64,000 nt of DNA from Dyella sp. BiH032 (GTDB lineage Bacteria > Pseudomonadota > Gammaproteobacteria > Xanthomonadales > Rhodanobacteraceae): assembly GCF_031954525.1 (NCBI RefSeq), contig NZ_CP134867.1, positions 1,798,001 through 1,862,000 on the forward strand. The letters run 5' to 3'. Made by a program: the position numbers and the translations under genes. The notes under the pieces were generated by a model. The model was given only the letters and a program-made list of their open reading frames with translations. It was not told the DNA's origin and did not search any database. Each line of letters starts with the position of its first letter. The first letter of the stretch is position 1. Of the stretch, positions 33,101 through 44,547 are shown one piece after another.

Positions 33101-34246
33101 ATGAGCGAGCAAGTCCTCCCCAAGGCCAAGAAATCCGTCGCCTTGTCCGGCGTGGCCGCGGGCAACACCGCGCTGTGCACCGTCGGCCGCAGCGGCAACG
33201 ATCTGCACTACCGCGGCTACGACATCCACGACCTGGCGGCCAAGGGCTGCTTCGAGGAAGTCGCCTACCTGCTCGTGCACGGCGTGCTGCCCAACTGGGC
33301 CGAACTCAATGCCTACCGTGCCAAGCTCAAGCGCCTGCGCGGCCTGCCCGCGCCGGTGAAGGGCGCACTGGAGCTGCTGCCGGCCGCCACCCACCCGATG
33401 GACGTGCTGCGTACCGGCTGCTCCGTGCTGGGCACCGTGCTGCCGGAGAAGGACGACCATAACGTCACCGGCGCGCGCGACATCGCCGACCGCCTGATGG
33501 CGAGCTTCGGCTCCATGCTGCTGTACTGGTACCACTTCAGCCATAACGGCAAGCGCATCGAGACCGAGACCGACGACGAGTCGATCGCCGCGCACTTCCT
33601 GCACCTGCTGCACGGCAAGAAGCCCAGCGAGCTGCATGCCCATGCGCTGGACAAGTCGCTGATCCTGTACGCCGAACATGAGTTCAACGCGTCGACGTTC
33701 ACCGCGCGCGTGGTCGCCGGCACCGGTTCGGACATGTATTCGGCCATCACCGGCGCGATCGGCGCGCTGCGCGGACCCAAGCACGGCGGCGCCAACGAAG
33801 TGGCGATGGAGATCATCGCGCGCTACCGCAGCGCGGCCGAGGCGGAGGCGGACATCCGCGCCCGCGTCGAGCGCAAGGAGATCATCATCGGTTTCGGCCA
33901 TCCGGTGTACACGGTGTCCGACCCGCGCAACGAGATCATCAAGGAAGTCTCGCGCAAGCTGTGCACCGAGGGCGGCAACCCGACGCTGTTCGACGTGTCC
34001 GAGCGCATCGAGAAGCTGATGTGGGAGCTCAAGAAGATGTTCCCGAACCTCGACTGGTTCTCCGCAAGCGCCTATCACATGATGGGCGTGCCCACCGCGA
34101 TGTTTACGCCGCTGTTCGTGATCGCCCGCACCTCCGGCTGGAGCGCGCACGTGATCGAGCAGCGTCAGGACGGCAAGATCATCCGCCCCAGCGCGAATTA
34201 CACCGGCCCGGAAGACCAGGCCTATGTGCCGATCGAAAAGCGCTGA
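33101..34246 (+). CDS. prpC: 2-methylcitrate synthase
   Basis: A 381-residue citrate-synthase-family enzyme that condenses propionyl-CoA with oxaloacetate. The catalytic segments are GGANEVAM with its preceding LRGPKHGG His, IGFGHPVYT and the late Asp region. The short form (about 380 residues, no N-terminal extension) and the partner prpB identify it as PrpC rather than GltA. AGGAGAACC precedes ATG 33101. Transcription ends at a clear terminator 27 bp downstream. Confidence 0.95.
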
Positions 34247-34641: not shown

Positions 34642-35658
34642 ATGAATCGATTCATCGGAAGAACGCGCCGGAGCTGGTTCGGCGCATCGTTGTTCGCCGC
34701 CGTGTTTCTATTGGGCTCCCTCGGAGCCGCGCAGGCGGCCGAGGAAGCTGCGCTCAAGCCCGACGCTGCACTGACGCCGGTCGGCTCGCTGGAAAAGGCA
34801 CTGCGGCCGCAAGGCGTGCCGGACAACTTCGTGGTGACACCCAATGGCTACTTCGATCCTTCGTGCGTGCAGGTCGTGCGCGAGGACGAACAGCTCCACC
34901 AGGACGGCAGCATCCGCCGCGCCGACGGCTCCCTGCGCAAGCCCGCGCTTTGCAGCCAGTCGCATTTCGCCCTCGACGGCACGCGGATCGAGCCGAACGG
35001 ACGGGTGACGTTCCCGGCGGCGCCCAAGCCGACCATCAACGGCTGGGTCATCGACACCAATTACGTCAGCGGCACGCCGATCGGGCGCATCGTCGCGAGC
35101 TGGAAGGTGCCGAGCAATCCGTCCAGTTCCGGCAGCCAGGTGATCTACTTCTTCCCGGGCCTAGAGCAGCTGCCGAACGTGCAGTCCATCCTGCAACCCG
35201 TGCTTGGCTGGAACGGCTACAACGACCATGCCTGGACCATGGCCAGCTGGAATTGCTGCGTGAGCGGCACGACGTATCACAGCTCGCCGATCAATGTGTC
35301 GGTGGGCGACAGCATCACCGGCGACACGTATTCCAATTGCTCGCCGGGTGTCAGCTGTTCGACCTGGAAGATCGTTTCCAAGGACGTTACCAAGGGCACC
35401 AGCACCACGTTGACCACCAATCCTTACGCGTCGTTGACCTGGGTGTTCGGTGGCGTGCTGGAAGCCTACGGGGTCAGCAGCTGCAGTCAGTATCCGAGCA
35501 ACGGGTCGATCGCCTTCTCCAACATCAAGGTGTATGACCTGAACCAGGTGCAGGTGGCTTCGCCGCCCTGGACCAAGGACTACCCGGTCGGCTCGACCAG
35601 CCCGCAGTGCAACTACGGCATCACCGCCACGGCGAGCACCACCAATCTGGTCTACTGA
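34642..35658 (+). CDS. secreted Cys-rich protein of unknown function
   Basis: A 338-residue protein with a typical signal peptide ending GAAQA (about 32). The mature part contains about ten Cys residues, including WNCCVSG, SNCSPGVSC and SSCSQYP, which suggests disulfide bonds. Aromatic-rich segments are IYFFPGLEQLP, LGWNGYNDHAWTMASW and LTWVFGGVLEAYG. The composition (many Ser, Thr, Asn, Gly) suits a secreted beta-sandwich enzyme or binding protein, but I recognise no family and find no catalytic motif. ATG 34642 has AGGAG at good distance; a GTG at 34621 is possible but lacks a site. It lies alone on its transcript, between prpC and the amyloid-like cluster. Confidence 0.75.
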   Translation: MNRFIGRTRRSWFGASLFAAVFLLGSLGAAQAAEEAALKPDAALTPVGSLEKALRPQGVPDNFVVTPNGYFDPSCVQVVREDEQLHQDGSIRRADGSLRKPALCSQSHFALDGTRIEPNGRVTFPAAPKPTINGWVIDTNYVSGTPIGRIVASWKVPSNPSSSGSQVIYFFPGLEQLPNVQSILQPVLGWNGYNDHAWTMASWNCCVSGTTYHSSPINVSVGDSITGDTYSNCSPGVSCSTWKIVSKDVTKGTSTTLTTNPYASLTWVFGGVLEAYGVSSCSQYPSNGSIAFSNIKVYDLNQVQVASPPWTKDYPVGSTSPQCNYGITATASTTNLVY

Positions 35659-36077
35659 TCGTTCGATCGAGCACCCCGGCCTGTGGCAGGGGTGCTCCCA
35701 CAGCCCCGGCATTCCTTCTTCGTGGCGCATGGGCCGTCCGCTTCCGATGCGTGAAGGCGTCGTTGGCGTTGGCAGGACACACGGTGTATCGGCGCTGTTA
35801 CTGATGGGTTTGCCGCGCCCGGTCTTGCCCCATCTGGCTTGCGGGCGTCTTGCCGCGGGCGAAGGTGCGCGACGGGCGTAACGCGGCTGATGCAGTGGGT
35901 GGCGATCCAGCGCCGCGCGCGCTTGCGCGCATTCCGCGCTCGTGCTCCCAAGTGACTGACTTCTCGCACAAGTTTCGCGCGAGGCGTACGCGCGCCACGA
36001 CGTGGCATGCGTGTTGCCAATGCTTTGGGGCCGCTTAGTCCGGCGAACCAGGGGGCCACGTTCCGCAGGAGAGAGAC
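35659..36077 (+). other. intergenic region with terminator-like hairpin
   Basis: GAGCACCCC (35669-35677) and GGGGTGCTC (35689-35697) form a 9-bp stem without a T-run just after the Cys-rich gene. The remaining 380 bp contain no gene I would support on either strand. They must hold the promoter of the Fap-like cluster, for which I see no clear -35/-10 pair. AGGAG precedes ATG 36078. Confidence 0.45.
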
Positions 36078-37004
36078 ATGCGCAAGACATTCATCGCCAC
36101 GGCTGTGCTGCTTGGCATCGGCTTGACGCTACCCGCCATGGCAGACGACGACAATTCCATCAATTCGCATAACAACAGCTCGACGCATACGCGGACCAAT
36201 GCCAGCCAGGGCAACGACCGCAACAACGTGGGTGACGCCAATGCGTCCGCGGTGGGTGCCGCGTCCGCCAACAACAGCGGTACGGCCACTTCCGCGGTCA
36301 CCAACTCCTTCAATGCGAGCAAGGCGGTCGCAGTCAGCCGGCTCGATGGCACGGTCAGCAATATCCAGGTCAGCGGCATCGGCAACGTCGCCCAGAACTG
36401 GGGCAACGCCAACGGCAGTCGCGGCGGCGCCGGCGGCGAAGCGTACGGCGGTTACGGCTATGGCGGCCGCGGTGGCGGCGCAGGTGACGGCGGCGGCGCG
36501 GGCGCGCGCAGCGGACGTGTCGGCGACAGCTCCGCTTCCAGCGGCAACGCCCTCGCGGGTGCCGGCGCCTGGGGTGGCGGCAGCGACGGCGACAACTATG
36601 CGGATGCCACGGCGCGTGCGCGCCGCAACAGCACCAGTACCGCCACCGGCGGCAATGGCTCCTGGGCGGGCGGCACGGCGACGGGCGGCAGCTCGACTTC
36701 GACCAGCGGCAGCGCGTCGGCAGCCGGCGGCGCGAGCGGTGCCGCGGACGCGACCGGCGGTGCCGGCGGCATGGGCGGCGCCGGCGCGGCAGGCACCGGC
36801 GGTGCGGCAGTGGGTGGCGCCGGTGGCGCGGGTGCGGCCGGCGGAGCGGCCTGGGCCGATGCGGGCGCGTTCGATATGTCCAATCACATGGACGGCGCCG
36901 CGGCCGCGGCAGCGGGCGTGACGGTGATGGCGCAGAACAGCGGTGTCGCCGCGCTCACGCAGCAGAGCGTGAACGTGCAGGCCAATCTCAACGTCGGCCA
37001 TTGA
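36078..37004 (+). CDS. Gly/Ala-rich secreted fibre subunit, FapB/FapC-like
   Basis: A 308-residue protein with a signal peptide (ends LPAMA, about 22). A Ser/Asn-rich N-terminal part (to about 115, with NNSSTHTRTNASQGNDRNN) is followed by about 160 residues of GGAGGAG-type low complexity. The last 35 residues are polar and beta-prone: VMAQNSGVAALTQQSVNVQ. It heads a five-gene set that ends with a C39-peptidase gene, a small subunit and a coiled-coil barrel, the order of Pseudomonas fapB/C-D-E-F. I infer it is the main exported amyloid-type subunit. It lacks the Cys-x-x-Cys expected near the C-terminus of Pseudomonas FapB/C, and homology is by context and composition, not alignment. Confidence 0.75.
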   Translation: MRKTFIATAVLLGIGLTLPAMADDDNSINSHNNSSTHTRTNASQGNDRNNVGDANASAVGAASANNSGTATSAVTNSFNASKAVAVSRLDGTVSNIQVSGIGNVAQNWGNANGSRGGAGGEAYGGYGYGGRGGGAGDGGGAGARSGRVGDSSASSGNALAGAGAWGGGSDGDNYADATARARRNSTSTATGGNGSWAGGTATGGSSTSTSGSASAAGGASGAADATGGAGGMGGAGAAGTGGAAVGGAGGAGAAGGAAWADAGAFDMSNHMDGAAAAAAGVTVMAQNSGVAALTQQSVNVQANLNVGH

Positions 37005-37014
37005 CGCGTGACGG

Positions 37015-37043
37015 GCATGGCGGGGCGCAGCGCCTCGCCATGC
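37015..37043 (+). terminator. strong hairpin after the fibre-subunit gene
   Basis: GCATGGCGGGGCG (37015-37027) pairs with CGCCTCGCCATGC (37031-37043), 13 bp with one G-U, around a 3-nt loop. It lies 10 bp after the subunit stop and 25 bp before the next ATG, with no U-run. Such stems between a major structural subunit and its assembly genes usually protect the upstream mRNA or dampen read-through. Confidence 0.65.
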
Positions 37044-37068
37044 TCCGCTCGCGCTCGGGAGAAGTGCC

Positions 37069-37488
37069 ATGCGGAATGTCAGGGTCGCGTGTGGCGTGGC
37101 CGCGACGTGCCTGTCCTTGGGCGGTTGGGGGCTTGCCACAGCCGGCTCGGCGCCGGCGATGCCTGCGTATCTGTCCACCGCGTCGAGCTCGCCGATCGCT
37201 GCCTACCAGGCGGCGGTGTCGGCCCGGCCGGACGAGGTCGAAGGTTTCGGCACGCGCGCCGATGCCGGCGTGCTGGCGAAGCTCAGCGGCGGCGCCGATG
37301 TGAGCTCCAAGATCACGCTCAACGGCACGGTCAGCGACAACCATGCCGACCATGTCGTCACCGGCAGCAATGCGATCAGCGCGGGCTCCCTCCAGGGAGC
37401 GGCCGGCGTGCCGATGGTGATCCAGAACACCGGCAACAATGTGCTGATCCAGAACGCCACCATCATCAACGTGCAGTTCCGGCCATGA
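37069..37488 (+). CDS. small secreted protein of the Fap-like cluster
   Basis: A 139-residue protein with a signal sequence (hydrophobic to about 25, with one Cys inside it). The mature part is small and polar: ADVSSKITLNGTVSDNHADHV, then a C-terminus VIQNTGNNVLIQNATIINVQ. That C-terminal pattern recurs near the ends of the neighbours at 36078 and 38168, suggesting a common export or assembly signal. It probably is a minor or nucleating subunit. GGGAG precedes the ATG. Its stop overlaps the ATG of the C39-peptidase gene (ATGA). Confidence 0.7.
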   Translation: MRNVRVACGVAATCLSLGGWGLATAGSAPAMPAYLSTASSSPIAAYQAAVSARPDEVEGFGTRADAGVLAKLSGGADVSSKITLNGTVSDNHADHVVTGSNAISAGSLQGAAGVPMVIQNTGNNVLIQNATIINVQFRP

Positions 37489-38171
37489 GGGCGTGGCTTC
37501 CGCTGGCCTGGCTGTCCGCGCTGTGCTGGCACGGCGCGGCGCCGGCCGCGGCGGTATCCGTGCCGGGCGCGCAAGGGCAGGGCATCAGCCTGCGGCTGAC
37601 CAGCCTCAAGGAAGCGCGCTTCCGCAACACCATCCGGCAAAAGTACGACTTCAGCTGCGGCTCGGCCGCGGTGGCGACCTTGCTGACGTACCAGTACGGC
37701 TATCCCGTCGACGAGCAGGCTGCGTTCGAGCAGATGTATGCGCACGGAGACCGCGCGAAGATCGGCAAGGAAGGATTCTCGCTGCTGGACATCAAACGCT
37801 ATCTGGCCGGCAACGGCTTCGACGCGGACGGCTTCGACGTGCCCTTGGACAAGCTGGAGCAAGAGCGCCTGCCGGCGATCGTGCTGATCGACGAGCGCGG
37901 CTATCACCATTTCGTGGTGGTGAAGGGGCTGTACGAAGGGCGCGTGCTCATCGGCGATCCCGCGCTCGGCACGCGGTCGCTGCCGCGCGCGCGCTTCGAG
38001 GCGATGTGGAAGAACCGGCTGGTGTTCGTCATCCATAACCGCCGTTCACTGGCGGTGTTCAACAGCCCGTCCGACTGGCGCGCGGCGCCGATGGCGCCAC
38101 TGGGGACCGCGGTCGATCGACGTGGCCTGGACAGCATCACCATGCCCAAGCGAGGGCCGGGGGATATATGA
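37485..38171 (+). CDS. C39-family cysteine peptidase, FapD-like
   Basis: A 228-residue protein with a signal sequence (hydrophobic to about 22). The papain-like C39 triad is in place: Cys in YDFSCGSAAVATLL (about 55), His in YHHFVVVKG (about 140) and Asp in IGDPALG (about 155). FapD in Pseudomonas is a periplasmic C39 protease required for amyloid export. Here the gene is coupled by ATGA overlaps to the small subunit before it and the FapE-like gene after it, so it should process or licence those subunits. A longer upstream frame exists but lacks a start in context. Confidence 0.85.
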   Translation: MRAWLPLAWLSALCWHGAAPAAAVSVPGAQGQGISLRLTSLKEARFRNTIRQKYDFSCGSAAVATLLTYQYGYPVDEQAAFEQMYAHGDRAKIGKEGFSLLDIKRYLAGNGFDADGFDVPLDKLEQERLPAIVLIDERGYHHFVVVKGLYEGRVLIGDPALGTRSLPRARFEAMWKNRLVFVIHNRRSLAVFNSPSDWRAAPMAPLGTAVDRRGLDSITMPKRGPGDI

Positions 38172-38668
38172 GCAAGCTTGCGCGCCGCATGGCGCTCTGC
38201 CTTATCGCGCTGTTCTCCGCCTCGTGGGGTGCGGCTCGCGCCGGCGAAACCGAACACATCGCCTGGACACCCGTCAGCGATGCACGCCTCGATGCGACGC
38301 GTGGCGGCTTCGACTGGGGCGGCGGCCTGGTCGCTTCGCTGGGCATCGACCGCGTGGTGTACGTCAACGGGACGCTGGTGACGTCGCTGCACCTCCAGGT
38401 GCCGGACATCGCCCGCGTGAACGCGGCGCAGGCGAGCGCGCTTTCATCTGCCATGAACAGCGCGGCGGTCGTGCAGAACGGTCCGGGCAACAGCGCCGAT
38501 CCTGCCGCGCTTGGCCGGTCGATGGCCGCCACGGTGCTGCAGAACACGCTCGACAACCAGCGCATTGCCGCGCAGACCACGCTCAACGTGTCGGTGAACA
38601 CGTTGAGCGCGTTCCGCGGCCTGAACCTGCAGCAGAGCCTGCAAGCCGCCAATCCGCTCGGTCGCTGA
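38168..38668 (+). CDS. small secreted protein, FapE-like
   Basis: A 166-residue protein with a signal peptide ending AARAG (about 26). The mature sequence includes SDARLDATRGGFDWGGGLVASLGIDRVVYVNG. The region VLQNTLDNQRIAAQTTLNVSVNTLSAFRGLN matches the end motif of the two subunits upstream. It has no Cys in the mature part. It overlaps the peptidase stop (ATGA) and precedes the barrel gene by 37 bp, the position of fapE in Pseudomonas. A role as minor fibre component or adaptor is inferred. Confidence 0.7.
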   Translation: MSKLARRMALCLIALFSASWGAARAGETEHIAWTPVSDARLDATRGGFDWGGGLVASLGIDRVVYVNGTLVTSLHLQVPDIARVNAAQASALSSAMNSAAVVQNGPGNSADPAALGRSMAATVLQNTLDNQRIAAQTTLNVSVNTLSAFRGLNLQQSLQAANPLGR

Positions 38669-38705
38669 GCTGAGTGGGCGCGGAATACCAAGAAGGGGGA
38701 GTGCC

Positions 38706-40133
38706 ATGACCAGGGTTCGTCCGGCGCACGAGGATCGACAACGCGGCCGCCCGAGGGGTGGCCTGAGATGCTGGCGCCACGTCGGAGCGGCAGCGAGCCT
38801 GATCCTGCTCGCCGGCACCGGCTTCGCACAGCAAGCGCCGCCCGCACCGGGCCAATCCGCAGCGGCTGGGGATGCGGACGAGCTGCATCGCGAGGTGAAA
38901 GCGCAGGGCGAGCGCCTGGAAGCGATGCGCAGCCAGATCGCCGCGCAGATGGCCGAGCTGGAGGCGATGAAGCGCACGCTCGCCGCGCAGGAGGCGCAAT
39001 ACCAGTCGCTGCGGCACGCCGTGGGCATGGACGTGCTGGACCGGCAACGCGCGGGCAATATCCGCGCGGGCGGCGCCTTCGCTGCCGCGCAGCCGATGCC
39101 GGCGGCCGATGCCGTGGCCGCCATGCCGGCGGCGGAGGACACCCAGCCCGTCGGGCAGGCACCGCAACGCGATACGCGCCCGCCTGAAGTCGCGCCGATC
39201 TTCGACCAGCCCGGCGTGCTGACGCCGCGCGGCAAACTGATCGTGGAGCCTTCGTATCAGTTCGGCTATTCGTCGGCGGAACGCGTGGCGCTGGTGGGTT
39301 ACACGATCATCCCCGCGATCCTGATCGGCCTGATCGACGTACGCCAGGTCAAGACCACCACGCAGACCGGCGCCATCGCGTTGCGCTACGGCATCACCAA
39401 CCGGCTGGAAGCGGAGGTGCGCGTTCCTTATGTGTACGGCCATACGGACACGATCAGCCGCGAGATCTTCACCGGCACGGCGACCGACCGCGTGTTCGGT
39501 GCCAGCGGCCACGGCCTGGGCGACGTGGAGGCGACCGCGCGCTACCAGATCAACGATGGCGGCGCCGACAAGGCCTATTACGTGGCCTGGCTGCGTTTCA
39601 AATCGCGCACCGGCCGGGACCCGTTCGAAGTGACCACGGACTGTGTCCAGCGCTGCGTGCAGAATGCGACCGGCACGGGCCTGCCGCTACAGCTGCCGAC
39701 GGGCAGCGGTTTCTATTCCGTGCAACCGGGCGTGACCTGGCTGTATCCGTCCGATCCGGTGGTGTTCTTCGGCAACGTCAGCTATCTGCACAACTTCACG
39801 CGCCACCATGTCAGCCGCACGCTGCTGCTGGCCGGCAAGGAGGAGCTGGGCGACGTGAAGGTGGGCGACGTGGCGGACGTGAGCGTCGGCATGGGACTGG
39901 CGCTCAACGAGAAAGCGTCCTTCAGCATCGGCTACGACCAGAGCTGGGTCGGCGTGACCAAGCAGAACAACCGCACGGTGGCCGGCTCGGCCAAGACCGT
40001 GTTGGGTACGTTGCTCATCGGCGGATCGTATCGCTTCAACGACAAGCGCACGCTCAACTTCACTTTGGGCGTCGGCGTGACGCGCGATACCCCGGACGCC
40101 ACCGTGACGGTACGCATGCCGATGACGTATTAA
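38706..40133 (+). CDS. outer-membrane beta-barrel transporter with coiled coil, FapF-like
   Basis: A 475-residue protein. A signal sequence (to about 42) is followed by an alpha-helical coiled coil (about 55-102, ELHREVKAQGERLEAMRSQI onwards), a Pro/Ala-rich linker and, from about 165, a barrel with alternating aromatic strands ending VRMPMTY. FapF of Pseudomonas has this architecture: an N-terminal trimeric coiled coil that gates a C-terminal barrel for amyloid secretion. It is the last gene of the cluster. A generic outer-membrane transporter annotation is possible, but the neighbours argue for FapF. GGGGGAG precedes the ATG. Confidence 0.8.
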   Translation: MTRVRPAHEDRQRGRPRGGLRCWRHVGAAASLILLAGTGFAQQAPPAPGQSAAAGDADELHREVKAQGERLEAMRSQIAAQMAELEAMKRTLAAQEAQYQSLRHAVGMDVLDRQRAGNIRAGGAFAAAQPMPAADAVAAMPAAEDTQPVGQAPQRDTRPPEVAPIFDQPGVLTPRGKLIVEPSYQFGYSSAERVALVGYTIIPAILIGLIDVRQVKTTTQTGAIALRYGITNRLEAEVRVPYVYGHTDTISREIFTGTATDRVFGASGHGLGDVEATARYQINDGGADKAYYVAWLRFKSRTGRDPFEVTTDCVQRCVQNATGTGLPLQLPTGSGFYSVQPGVTWLYPSDPVVFFGNVSYLHNFTRHHVSRTLLLAGKEELGDVKVGDVADVSVGMGLALNEKASFSIGYDQSWVGVTKQNNRTVAGSAKTVLGTLLIGGSYRFNDKRTLNFTLGVGVTRDTPDATVTVRMPMTY

Positions 40134-41952: not shown

Positions 41953-44547
41953 ATGAATACCAATTACCGCCGATCCCTTCCCGGTACGTCGCTGGATTAT
42001 TTCGACGCGCGCGCCGCCGTGGAGGCGATCCAGCCCGGCGCCTACGACGGCTTGCCTTATACGTCGCGCGTGCTCGCCGAGAACCTGGTGCGCCGCTGCG
42101 ATCCGGCCGTGCTCGACGAGTGCCTCAGGCAGATCATCGAACGCAAGCGCGAACGCGATTTCCCGTGGTTCCCGGCGCGCGTGGTGTGCCATGACATCCT
42201 CGGCCAGACGGCCCTGGTCGATCTGGCCGGTCTGCGCGACGCGATCGCCGAACGCGGTGGCGATCCGGCCAAGGTCAATCCGGTGGTACCGGTGCAGCTG
42301 ATCGTCGACCACTCGCTGGCGGTGGAGTGCGGCGGCTTCGATCCGGATGCGTTCGCGAAGAATCGCGCCATCGAGGATCGCCGCAACGAGGACCGCTTCC
42401 ATTTCATCGAATGGACCAAGAAGGCGTTCGAAAACGTCGACGTCATCCCGCCGGGCAACGGCATCATGCACCAGATCAACCTGGAGAAGATGTCGCCGGT
42501 GATCCAGGTGCAGGACGGAGTGGCCTATCCCGACACCTGCGTGGGCACCGACAGCCATACGCCGCACGTAGACGCGCTCGGCGTCATCGCCATCGGCGTG
42601 GGTGGCCTGGAAGCGGAGAACGTGATGCTCGGTCGCGCCTCGTGGATGCGCCTGCCAGACATCGTGGGCGTGGAACTGACCGGCAAGCGGCAGCCGGGCA
42701 TCACCGCCACCGACATCGTGCTGGCGCTCACCGAGTTCCTGCGCAAGGAGAAAGTGGTCGGCGCCTACCTGGAATTCCGCGGCGAAGGCGCGGCCAGCCT
42801 CACGCTCGGCGATCGCGCCACCATTTCCAACATGGCGCCCGAGTATGGCGCGACCGCCGCGATGTTCTTCATCGACGGCCAGACCACCGATTACCTGCGC
42901 CTCACCGGCCGCAGCGACGAGCAGGTGAGGCTGGTGGAAACCTACGCCAAGGCCGCGGGCCTGTGGGCCGATACGCTTGCCGATGCGCAGTACGAGCGCA
43001 CGCTGACGTTCGACCTGTCCTCGGTGGTGCGGAACATGGCGGGTCCGTCGAATCCGCACAAGCGTCTGCCTACGTCCGATCTCGCTGCGCGCGGCATCGC
43101 CGGCCAGTGGGAAGAGAAGCCGGGGCAGATGCCCGATGGTGCGGTGATCATCGCCGCCATCACGAGCTGCACCAACACGAGCAATCCGCGTAACGTGATC
43201 GCGGCAGCGCTGCTGGCGCGCAATGCGAACGCGCGGGGTCTCACGCGCAAGCCATGGGTGAAGAGCTCGCTCGCGCCCGGTTCCAAGGCAGTGGAGCTGT
43301 ACCTGAAGGAGGCAAACCTGCTGCCGGAACTGGAGCAGCTCGGCTTCGGCATCGTCGCGTTCGCCTGCACCACCTGCAACGGCATGTCCGGCGCGCTCGA
43401 CCCGAAGATCCAGCAGGAGATCATCGACCGCGACCTGTATGCCACCGCCGTGTTGTCGGGCAACCGCAACTTCGATGGGCGCATCCATCCGTATGCCAAG
43501 CAGGCCTTCCTGGCCTCGCCGCCGCTGGTGGTGGCCTATGCCATCGCCGGCACCATCCGTTTCGATATCGAGAAGGACGTGCTGGGTGTCGATGCCAATG
43601 GCCAGCCGGTGACGCTGAAGGACATCTGGCCCACGGACGAGGAGATCGACGCGATCGTGTCATCCAGCGTGAAGCCGGAGCAGTTCCGCCGGGTCTACGA
43701 GCCGATGTTCGCGCGCACCGGTCATGCCGGCACGCGCGCCGCGCCGCTGTATGCGTGGCGTGCGCAGAGCACGTACATCCGCCGTCCGCCGTACTGGGAA
43801 GGTGCGCTCGCCGGCGAGCGCACGCTCAAGGGCATGCGTCCGCTCGCGGTGCTGGGCGACAACATCACGACGGACCACCTGTCGCCATCCAACGCGATCC
43901 TGCTCGATAGCGCGGCCGGCGAATACCTGGCCAAGATGGGCTTGCCCGAAGAGGACTTCAATTCGTACGCGACCCATCGCGGCGATCACTTGACGGCTCA
44001 GCGCGCGACGTTCGCCAATCCCACCCTGGTCAACGAGATGGCGGTGATCGACGGCGAGGTGAAGAAGGGTTCGCTGGCGCGCGTGGAGCCGGAAGGCAAG
44101 GTCATGCGCATGTGGGAAGCGATCGAGACCTACATGGAGCGCAAGCAGCCGCTGATCGTGGTTGCCGGCGCCGACTACGGCCAGGGCTCCTCGCGCGACT
44201 GGGCCGCGAAGGGCGTGCGGCTGGCGGGCGTCGAGGCGATCGTGGCGGAAGGCTTCGAGCGCATCCATCGCACCAACCTGATCGGCATGGGCGTGCTGCC
44301 GCTGGAGTTCAAGCCGGGCACCAACCGCAAAACGCTGGGTATCGACGGCACCGAAACCTTCGACGTGGCGGGCGCGCGCACGCCGCGCGCGGACCTCACG
44401 CTGGTCATCCATCGCAAGAACGGCGAGCGCGTCGACGTGCCGGTGACCTGCCGTCTGGATACCGCCGAGGAAGTGTCGATCTATGAAGCCGGCGGCGTGC
44501 TGCAGCGCTTCGCGCAGGATTTCCTCGAGGCTTCGCAGGCGGCCTGA
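41953..44547 (+). CDS. acnD: Fe/S-dependent 2-methylcitrate dehydratase
   Basis: An 864-residue aconitase-family enzyme. 4Fe-4S ligands are in ITSCTNTSNPRN and CTTCNG. Substrate motifs include GTDSHTPHVDALGV, GQGSSRDWAAKG and TTDHLSPSN. The opening NTNYRRSLPGTSLDYFDARAAV is the AcnD pattern, distinct from AcnA or AcnB. It dehydrates 2-methylcitrate, and the product needs PrpF to be isomerised to 2-methyl-cis-aconitate. prpF follows directly. The start at 41953 fits the family; the frame upstream overlaps the control region. Confidence 0.95.
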   Translation: MNTNYRRSLPGTSLDYFDARAAVEAIQPGAYDGLPYTSRVLAENLVRRCDPAVLDECLRQIIERKRERDFPWFPARVVCHDILGQTALVDLAGLRDAIAERGGDPAKVNPVVPVQLIVDHSLAVECGGFDPDAFAKNRAIEDRRNEDRFHFIEWTKKAFENVDVIPPGNGIMHQINLEKMSPVIQVQDGVAYPDTCVGTDSHTPHVDALGVIAIGVGGLEAENVMLGRASWMRLPDIVGVELTGKRQPGITATDIVLALTEFLRKEKVVGAYLEFRGEGAASLTLGDRATISNMAPEYGATAAMFFIDGQTTDYLRLTGRSDEQVRLVETYAKAAGLWADTLADAQYERTLTFDLSSVVRNMAGPSNPHKRLPTSDLAARGIAGQWEEKPGQMPDGAVIIAAITSCTNTSNPRNVIAAALLARNANARGLTRKPWVKSSLAPGSKAVELYLKEANLLPELEQLGFGIVAFACTTCNGMSGALDPKIQQEIIDRDLYATAVLSGNRNFDGRIHPYAKQAFLASPPLVVAYAIAGTIRFDIEKDVLGVDANGQPVTLKDIWPTDEEIDAIVSSSVKPEQFRRVYEPMFARTGHAGTRAAPLYAWRAQSTYIRRPPYWEGALAGERTLKGMRPLAVLGDNITTDHLSPSNAILLDSAAGEYLAKMGLPEEDFNSYATHRGDHLTAQRATFANPTLVNEMAVIDGEVKKGSLARVEPEGKVMRMWEAIETYMERKQPLIVVAGADYGQGSSRDWAAKGVRLAGVEAIVAEGFERIHRTNLIGMGVLPLEFKPGTNRKTLGIDGTETFDVAGARTPRADLTLVIHRKNGERVDVPVTCRLDTAEEVSIYEAGGVLQRFAQDFLEASQAA

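Follow-up and report, generated by a model that had tools for sequence, protein, structure and literature searches.

What kind of secretion system is encoded by a five-gene block of the soil bacterium Dyella sp. BiH032 that pairs a C39 peptidase with an outer-membrane barrel, and how does it relate to the Fap functional-amyloid system of Pseudomonas? The block lies in a 64,000-nucleotide stretch of contig NZ_CP134867.1 (positions 1,798,001 to 1,862,000, forward strand), hereafter the window, in whose numbering all coordinates are given. A preliminary description of this DNA had proposed a Fap-like export cluster of five plus-strand genes, whose positions and lengths all agree with the list of open reading frames (ORFs), and the two ATGA overlaps that it reported between the middle genes are visible in the DNA at 37485-37488 and 38168-38171. 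The genes are as follows.

36078..37004, plus strand: gene 1, candidate Gly/Ala-rich fibre subunit, putatively secreted, 308 amino acids (aa) (ORF; phmmer relatives)
37069..37488, plus strand: gene 2, putatively secreted minor subunit with a leader and one repeat, 139 aa (ORF; profile relative of gene 4)
37485..38171, plus strand: gene 3, FapD-like C39 peptidase, 228 aa (Pfam, NCBIfam and Protein Data Bank (PDB) matches)
38168..38668, plus strand: gene 4, FapE-like putatively secreted protein, 166 aa (profile match to canonical FapE)
38706..40133, plus strand: gene 5, FapF-type outer-membrane barrel with an N-terminal coiled coil, 475 aa (phmmer, AlphaFold2, Foldseek)

The five genes are genuine, and the operon that they form is conserved. 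We consider it likely that the locus represents a branch of functional-amyloid secretion that is sister to Fap, with entry by Sec, trimming by the C39 peptidase, export through the FapF-type barrel and a fibre formed by the gene 1 product. The system is related to Pseudomonas Fap but distinct from it, and probably builds a surface fibre.

The homology of this system to Fap is carried by genes 3 and 5. Comparison of their products with hidden Markov models, as suggested in the preliminary description, matched them to NCBIfam FapD and FapF, respectively, below the curated cut-offs: gene 3 scored 137.9 bits against FapD (E 2.9e-40; cut-off 330), and gene 5 scored 156.7 bits against FapF (E 7.6e-46; cut-off 700). 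The FapD cut-off was reached by none of 369 genomes of the class, canonical loci included, and is therefore narrow. Among solved structures searched by phmmer, the best match of gene 5 was FapF itself (5o67, E 4.7e-27). The AlphaFold2 model of the gene 5 monomer, with a predicted local distance difference test (pLDDT) score of 79.6, combines barrel strands with a long helix (residues 57-106) and a short one (201-207); block means of pLDDT reach 91-95 over residues 61-100 of the coiled-coil helix, and the short helix, which lies before the second strand, was assigned as the plug by position. Foldseek with this model placed 18 FapF chains on top (5o67, E 1.1e-19, template modelling score 0.82 by target), followed by the COG4313 outer-membrane channel (4rl8, E 6.5e-12), which has a related barrel fold but fits gene 5 less well than FapF does. 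A PDB profile search with the 68-sequence barrel alignment was set aside because two canonical FapF rows were included in it. The claimed barrel with its N-terminal coiled coil was thus borne out by both sequence and fold. The preliminary description had also considered a barrel of an unrelated family; FapF was preferred over the COG4313 channel, and no phenol-transporter family turned up when gene 5 was searched against Pfam at E 1. In passing, we note that relatives of gene 5 (P0006, P0008, P0010 and others) carry the label 'acetate kinase' in many Dyella and Rhodanobacter entries of public databases, among the 120 records listed; because the Pfam matches of gene 5 include no kinase family, this label looks like a spreading misannotation.

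Gene 3 matched the C39 family of Pfam (PF03412) with E 3.8e-20, and its closest solved structure was 6mpz, the double-glycine-motif protease of a PCAT transporter (E 8.6e-7). The Cys-His-Asp set described earlier as intact is present as Cys58, His142 and Asp158 within their motifs, which we take to be the catalytic residues; among gene 3 relatives the Cys and Asp motifs are kept in 91/91 and the His motif in 90/91. Gene 3 is FapD-like and probably periplasmic. The NCBIfam FilB and FilC models of a 'putative pilus system' (NF050078, NF050079) also matched, at 123.4 bits for the peptidase and 43.8 bits for the barrel, but, judged by model scores alone, these matches are weaker than those to FapD and FapF, and genes 1, 2 and 4 match no Fil model at E 1.

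We next placed gene 3 in a maximum-likelihood tree of 67 of the 127 available C39 rows (102 labelled gene 3 and 25 labelled FapD), mutually close named loci having been dropped. All 33 window-type peptidases fell on one side of a branch with support 100/98, and 23 canonical FapD rows on one side of another branch with support 100/95; the other 11 rows did not form a single group. The window peptidase was nearest, among the tree rows, to that of Dyella sp. SG609. The suggestion that the locus might be a separate branch of C39-peptidase-dependent secretion therefore holds in that the window-type and canonical peptidases form distinct clades. Further, in the window's own genome and those of 60 relatives, a peptidase of at least 62% identity was found in 18 of the 61 and one of 38-46% identity in 12, and three genomes (G007, G012 and G037) contain both kinds. 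The 12 loci with the 38-46% peptidase read as canonical fapABCDEF, except that FapE was not called in L122 (L and G numbers denote fetched loci and genomes, respectively). Co-occurrence in three genomes, besides the clade split, argues for two systems and not one. In the window genome (5.25 Mb) the FapF model gave one match and the C39 family two, the second being a 725-residue open frame that is probably an ABC transporter; thus, no second Fap-type system was seen there.

These results bear on the view that the locus is simply a canonical Fap operon that has lost fapA and diverged. The peptidase and barrel are indeed of the same families, and fapA loss is the commonest deviation in known Fap operons (PMC3792158, cited from part of the text). 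The absence of the FapA chaperone noted in the preliminary description was confirmed: the window has none in the interval that separates gene 1 from the preceding gene, and no gene was labelled FapA in loci L167-L179. However, the separate peptidase clade, the presence of both systems in three genomes and the lack of Fap repeats in gene 1 make this view unlikely. Scores far below the FapD and FapF cut-offs point the same way, a weak argument in that loci of canonical content also score below them.

The gene content likewise combines likeness and difference. As in Pseudomonas Fap, secreted proteins precede the gene for a C39 peptidase, a FapE-like protein lies between the peptidase and a FapF-fold barrel with a coiled coil, and a sigma-54-type site lies ahead of the first gene, as it does ahead of fapA in related genomes. 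Unlike Pseudomonas Fap, the window system has no fapA, its major subunit has no set of three Fap repeats, two of its proteins carry a GG leader and its peptidase belongs to a separate clade. The proposed gene order of fapB/C-D-E-F consequently stands for the D-like peptidase and the F-like barrel, whereas genes 1 and 2 are not plain FapB or FapC; gene 2 carries a single repeat and a leader resembling the one in gene 4, unlike FapB and FapC with their three Fap repeats. The C-terminal Cys-x-x-Cys reported as missing is indeed absent, gene 1 having no Cys at all, but this does not discriminate between the systems, as only 2/23 canonical FapC have the motif.

The related genomes, whose survey had also been suggested, revealed that the block is conserved and that its order is not unique to this genome. 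With genes called in the fetched loci by a purpose-written caller, genes 1-5 were found in the window order with a barrel-sized gene 5 in 44 of 80 named loci (L111, with a 268-aa false gene 5, was left out of this count). In a further 14/80, mostly Variovorax but also Rhodoferax, Polaromonas and one metagenome-assembled genome, genes 1-4 are in order and gene 5 is divergent beside gene 1. The arrangement is therefore not due to chance. At least one gene label is missing from 22/80 loci, reflecting missed gene calls, contig ends or real absence, and phmmer found a gene 1 relative in 77 of 81 places (the 80 named loci and the window).

In the class sample of 369 genomes, which includes the window's own and from which 40 stretches were fetched, some FapD-model match was present in 77 genomes, ABC transporters being among these. 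The window type was found in 15/369 (13 fetched loci plus G000 and G037) and the canonical type in 14/369, or 15 if G420, unfetched and scoring in the same range, is counted. All five labels were present in only 5/13 fetched window-type loci (L170, L171, L172, L177 and L178), the others being short of one to three labels (e.g. L167 has no label for gene 1 or gene 2, and L175 none for the peptidase). At the level of the phylum, at least 16 of 398 genomes gave a match to the gene 4 profile, one of them in another class; this count is a lower bound, only part of each genome's candidates having been scored. A third kind of locus, in which a C39 peptidase adjoins or lies near a weakly matching barrel gene, was observed in L181-L187 and L190, with no convincing leader and no labelled gene 2 or 4.

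The substrates of the peptidase are suggested by a motif in genes 2 and 4.

37273..37293, plus strand: double-glycine leader LAKLSGG of gene 2, residues 69-75 (aligned GG; C39 cut predicted after the motif)
38288..38308, plus strand: double-glycine leader LDATRGG of gene 4, residues 41-47 (aligned GG; C39 cut predicted after the motif)

Bacteriocin C39 transporters follow a double-glycine leader rule, in which hydrophobic residues occupy positions -7 and -4. The C39 domains of such ABC transporters (PCAT1, ComA) are sequence relatives of gene 3; unlike them, the window enzyme is stand-alone and probably periplasmic, and its predicted substrates carry a signal peptide as well as the leader. In gene 4, position -7 (L41) is at least 90% conserved and position -4 is variable, the latter being Thr in gene 4 and Leu in gene 2 of the window. 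Leaders were counted on alignment columns, because a pattern search that extends as much as 200 residues ahead of the called start risks false matches (that search gave 92/93 for gene 4 and 74/82 for gene 2). All 93 gene 4 relatives have GG at the aligned place near the N-terminus, and 72 of the 82 relatives of gene 2 have it in the corresponding alignment columns; R45, G46 and G47 are invariant in a 51-row gene 4 alignment. The pattern L...RGG was found in a fixed N-terminal stretch of 92/93 gene 4 relatives, compared with 1.5 expected by shuffling, and within residues 16-95 of 1/1117 neighbouring genes (26/1117 for a looser form); the plain gene 2 pattern is less telling (73/82 observed, 10.2 expected by shuffling). 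In the AlphaFold2 model of gene 4, of moderate confidence (pLDDT 70), a short helix at 38-44 lies directly ahead of the GG; a structure search with this model gave no match at E 0.001.

A counterpart exists in canonical FapE, where a pattern search found L..[LIVM]RG[RK] at the leader place in 21/22 proteins (0.06 expected), the single exception, L160, reading LANQRGR. The gene 4 profile matched that of canonical FapE at 95%, but only in a 36-column segment that holds the leader, and the gene 2 and gene 4 profiles matched each other at 98%. Among newly found loci in which gene 2 was recognised without requiring GG, the GG was present in 6/6 (L201, L202, L204, L205, L207 and L211; L202 lies in the already known genome G037); gene 2 of L206 and L210 was detected only by a GG-requiring pattern, and that of L203, which is the already counted G131, lacks GG. 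Taken together, the alignments indicate that the double-glycine motif of genes 2 and 4 is likely the C39 cut site. Cleavage there would leave mature parts of 64 aa (gene 2) and 119 aa (gene 4), with their Q/N motifs kept. For FapE, PMC5557850 reports that no peptides came from the initial ∼70 residues, in keeping with a cut in that part of the protein.

The pairing of a C39 peptidase with double-glycine leaders is the bacteriocin arrangement (PMC5557850, in part), and the closest solved C39 belongs to a PCAT transporter, so genes 2 and 4 might instead encode precursors of small secreted peptides, bacteriocin-like or signalling, with C39 as their maturation protease and no fibre as the purpose. 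We regard this as very improbable, because the enzyme (gene 3) and its predicted substrates (genes 2 and 4) all have signal peptides, as judged by eye, the block has no ABC transporter gene, the predicted mature parts are 64 and 119 aa long and retain Q/N motifs, and gene 1 and the FapF-type barrel adjoin in most fetched loci.

We then turned to the putative fibre proteins, of which gene 1 is Gly/Ala-rich as described (23% Gly, 22% Ala) and matches no Pfam or NCBIfam family.

36861..37001, plus strand: C-terminal block of gene 1 with one Q/N repeat (profile matches with anchored controls)
37378..37485, plus strand: C-terminal Q/N repeat of gene 2, VIQNTGNNVLIQNA (canonical Fap-repeat profile; relatives)

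Against a profile of 118 canonical Fap repeats, with the 99% mark of shuffles as threshold, 77% of 22 FapE and 63% of 82 gene 2 relatives scored above the mark, as did 4% of 93 gene 4 relatives. Repeat windows cut by one regular expression were further compared with one another, with 60 controls per comparison in which the anchor columns were kept fixed. Loci L168 and L169 served as the link: they contain a window-type peptidase, gene 2, gene 4 and barrel together with a major subunit that has four clear repeats. Canonical Fap repeats matched these four-repeat subunits at 67.5% (control maximum 8.9), and the L168/L169 repeats in turn matched the gene 1 end at 96.9% (control maximum 66.6) and the gene 2 end at 90.7% (control maximum 29.7). 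The gene 1 and gene 2 ends matched each other at 98.2% (control maximum 69.9), and canonical Fap repeats matched gene 2 directly at 32.5% (control maximum 12.6); in each of these comparisons 0/60 controls were as high. As to gene arrangement, L168:4758-9144 holds two major-subunit genes (301 and 307 aa) with four similar repeats each, flanking the gene 2-to-gene 4 block. The gene 1 spacer, Gly/Ala-rich here, is Asn/Ser/Asp-rich in the distant loci L171, L174 and L177, and the C-terminal block is kept.

Upstream of gene 1 lies one further conserved feature.

36003..36018, plus strand: candidate sigma-54 (-24/-12) promoter TGGCATG-N4-TTGC (full score; conserved upstream of gene 1)

The site begins 75 bases upstream of gene 1. 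Scored over 12 positions, with one wildcard and a threshold of 11 or more, such sites were found before gene 1 in 68/81 loci, compared with 0.7% of mononucleotide-shuffled upstream regions, and before canonical fapA in 11/15; elsewhere they were rare (gene 5, 2/93; gene 2, 1/82; fapB, 2/24). Genes with a GAFTG[AS] motif adjoin canonical operons in many cases, those of Variovorax type in most and distant window-type operons in some, and the regulator neighbours scanned with Pfam (four window-type and one canonical) were all sigma-54 activators with a VpsR domain. The leaders, the sigma-54-type promoter, the VpsR-type regulators beside some relatives and the canonical fapABCDEF operons in sister genomes all go beyond the preliminary description.

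We propose the following model for the sister branch. All five products would reach the periplasm or outer membrane by Sec, after which the gene 3 peptidase would cleave the gene 2 and gene 4 products at the end of their double-glycine leader, itself located downstream of the signal peptide. Export of the products of genes 1, 2 and 4 would run through the gene 5 pore, which is of FapF type and presumably a trimer. Gene 1 would supply the bulk subunit of the surface fibre, in which a Gly/Ala-rich spacer leads up to one Q/N repeat at the end; a similar single repeat would come from gene 2, which may nucleate or co-polymerise, and gene 4, corresponding to FapE, may initiate secretion or serve as the anchor of the fibre. 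The operon is probably transcribed with sigma-54 and a VpsR-type activator. Of this model, the data show the homology of genes 3 and 5, the gene order, the separate clade, and the conservation of the leader motifs and of the promoter-like site; the signal peptides (judged by eye), cleavage, export, trimer, fibre, its amyloid nature and the regulation are inferred. More broadly, we lean somewhat towards a reading in which a single leader code, L..xRG[G/R/K], carried by FapE-like proteins, is recognised by the FapD-class peptidases of both branches. On this reading the window branch would be a second secretion system of comparable spread, whose repeat amyloid gave way to exchangeable low-complexity spacers (Gly/Ala or Asn/Ser), each followed by one terminal Q/N repeat.

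Several observations weigh against this model. Gene 1 scored above the 99% shuffle mark of the Fap-repeat profile in 0/84 cases, the window included, its direct match to canonical Fap repeats (5.6%) was equalled or exceeded by 3/60 controls, and its full-length match to FapC covers the signal peptide only. Fap repeats in gene 1 were accordingly rejected; since the direct match fails and the link runs via the L168/L169 repeats, the tie of gene 1 to Fap repeats is indirect. The FapF trimerisation motif R-h-x-x-h-E occurs in 2/87 window-type barrels, and likewise in only 5/25 canonical ones. At the leader, 10/82 gene 2 relatives have no aligned GG: nine come from distant loci and read, for instance, QRGT or ERAK, and the tenth, L056, reads GS. 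Canonical FapE has GR or GK instead of GG, which makes a single specificity for both uncertain. Beside the peptidase of 16 C39 loci outside both branches (L180-L195; no C39 gene was labelled in L188, L189 and L192) no convincing leader was found, the only three pattern matches being in unrelated-looking genes (L181, L186 and L190), so that a leader general to all C39 loci is not supported. Finally, neither the window nor loci L034-L094 showed a GAFTG[AS]-motif gene next to the operon. The best VpsR-type relative in the window genome lies far from the operon (43% identity, with one TGA in the matched stretch), and that it acts on the operon would be a guess.

The results for gene 1 also bear on the nature of the fibre, as its product could take the same route to the surface without being amyloid, as a fibre (silk-like or polyglycine-helix) or as a loose, adhesive protein of the matrix. 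The failed Fap-repeat test would fit, as would the low-complexity middle, whose composition is swapped among relatives (Gly/Ala or Asn/Ser/Asp), and a mild period of three in the Gly spacing (mean z 2.4 at lag 3; z above 3 in 35% of 72 relatives and 1.9 in the window itself). However, the C-terminal Q/N repeat is kept, and the major subunits of L168 and L169 have four such repeats, so that a non-amyloid product appears possible but doubtful. For a polyglycine-II bundle in particular, the period-three signal is only a mild sign.

How does this relate to what is reported for Fap? The following statements are drawn from parts of the cited papers. Fap secretion requires FapD (PMC5557850), and FapD and FapF are members of larger families, with some fap operons lacking fapA (PMC3792158). 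Homologues of fapD and fapF are co-located in five further phyla, the FapD substrate being given as undetermined (PMC6173800). FapD is thought to process FapE and FapF (PMC12822426); across these accounts its target is either given as undetermined or taken, by presumption only, to be FapE or FapF (PMC5557850, PMC6173800, PMC12822426). With a leader that is invariant in gene 4 and has a FapE counterpart, the question of the FapD target becomes a simple mutation experiment. A census that required Fap-repeat homologues lists 1602 clusters (PMC12822426), and operons of the window kind are therefore likely missing from it. Narrow literature searches found no description of the window branch, and one may exist elsewhere. 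The fibre subunits of the relatives, with four repeats or with one repeat and a spacer, should be useful for the study and engineering of secreted fibres.

As for the surroundings, a secreted 338-residue protein with no significant family match is encoded just upstream at 34642-35658; among the fetched loci, only L034 and L035 yielded relatives besides the window itself. The operon is flanked by a citrate-synthase-like gene (33101-34246) and an aconitase-like gene (41953-44547), by eye a methylcitrate cluster, and neighbours of the same sizes recur beside the operon in many Dyella, Rhodanobacter and Luteibacter loci.

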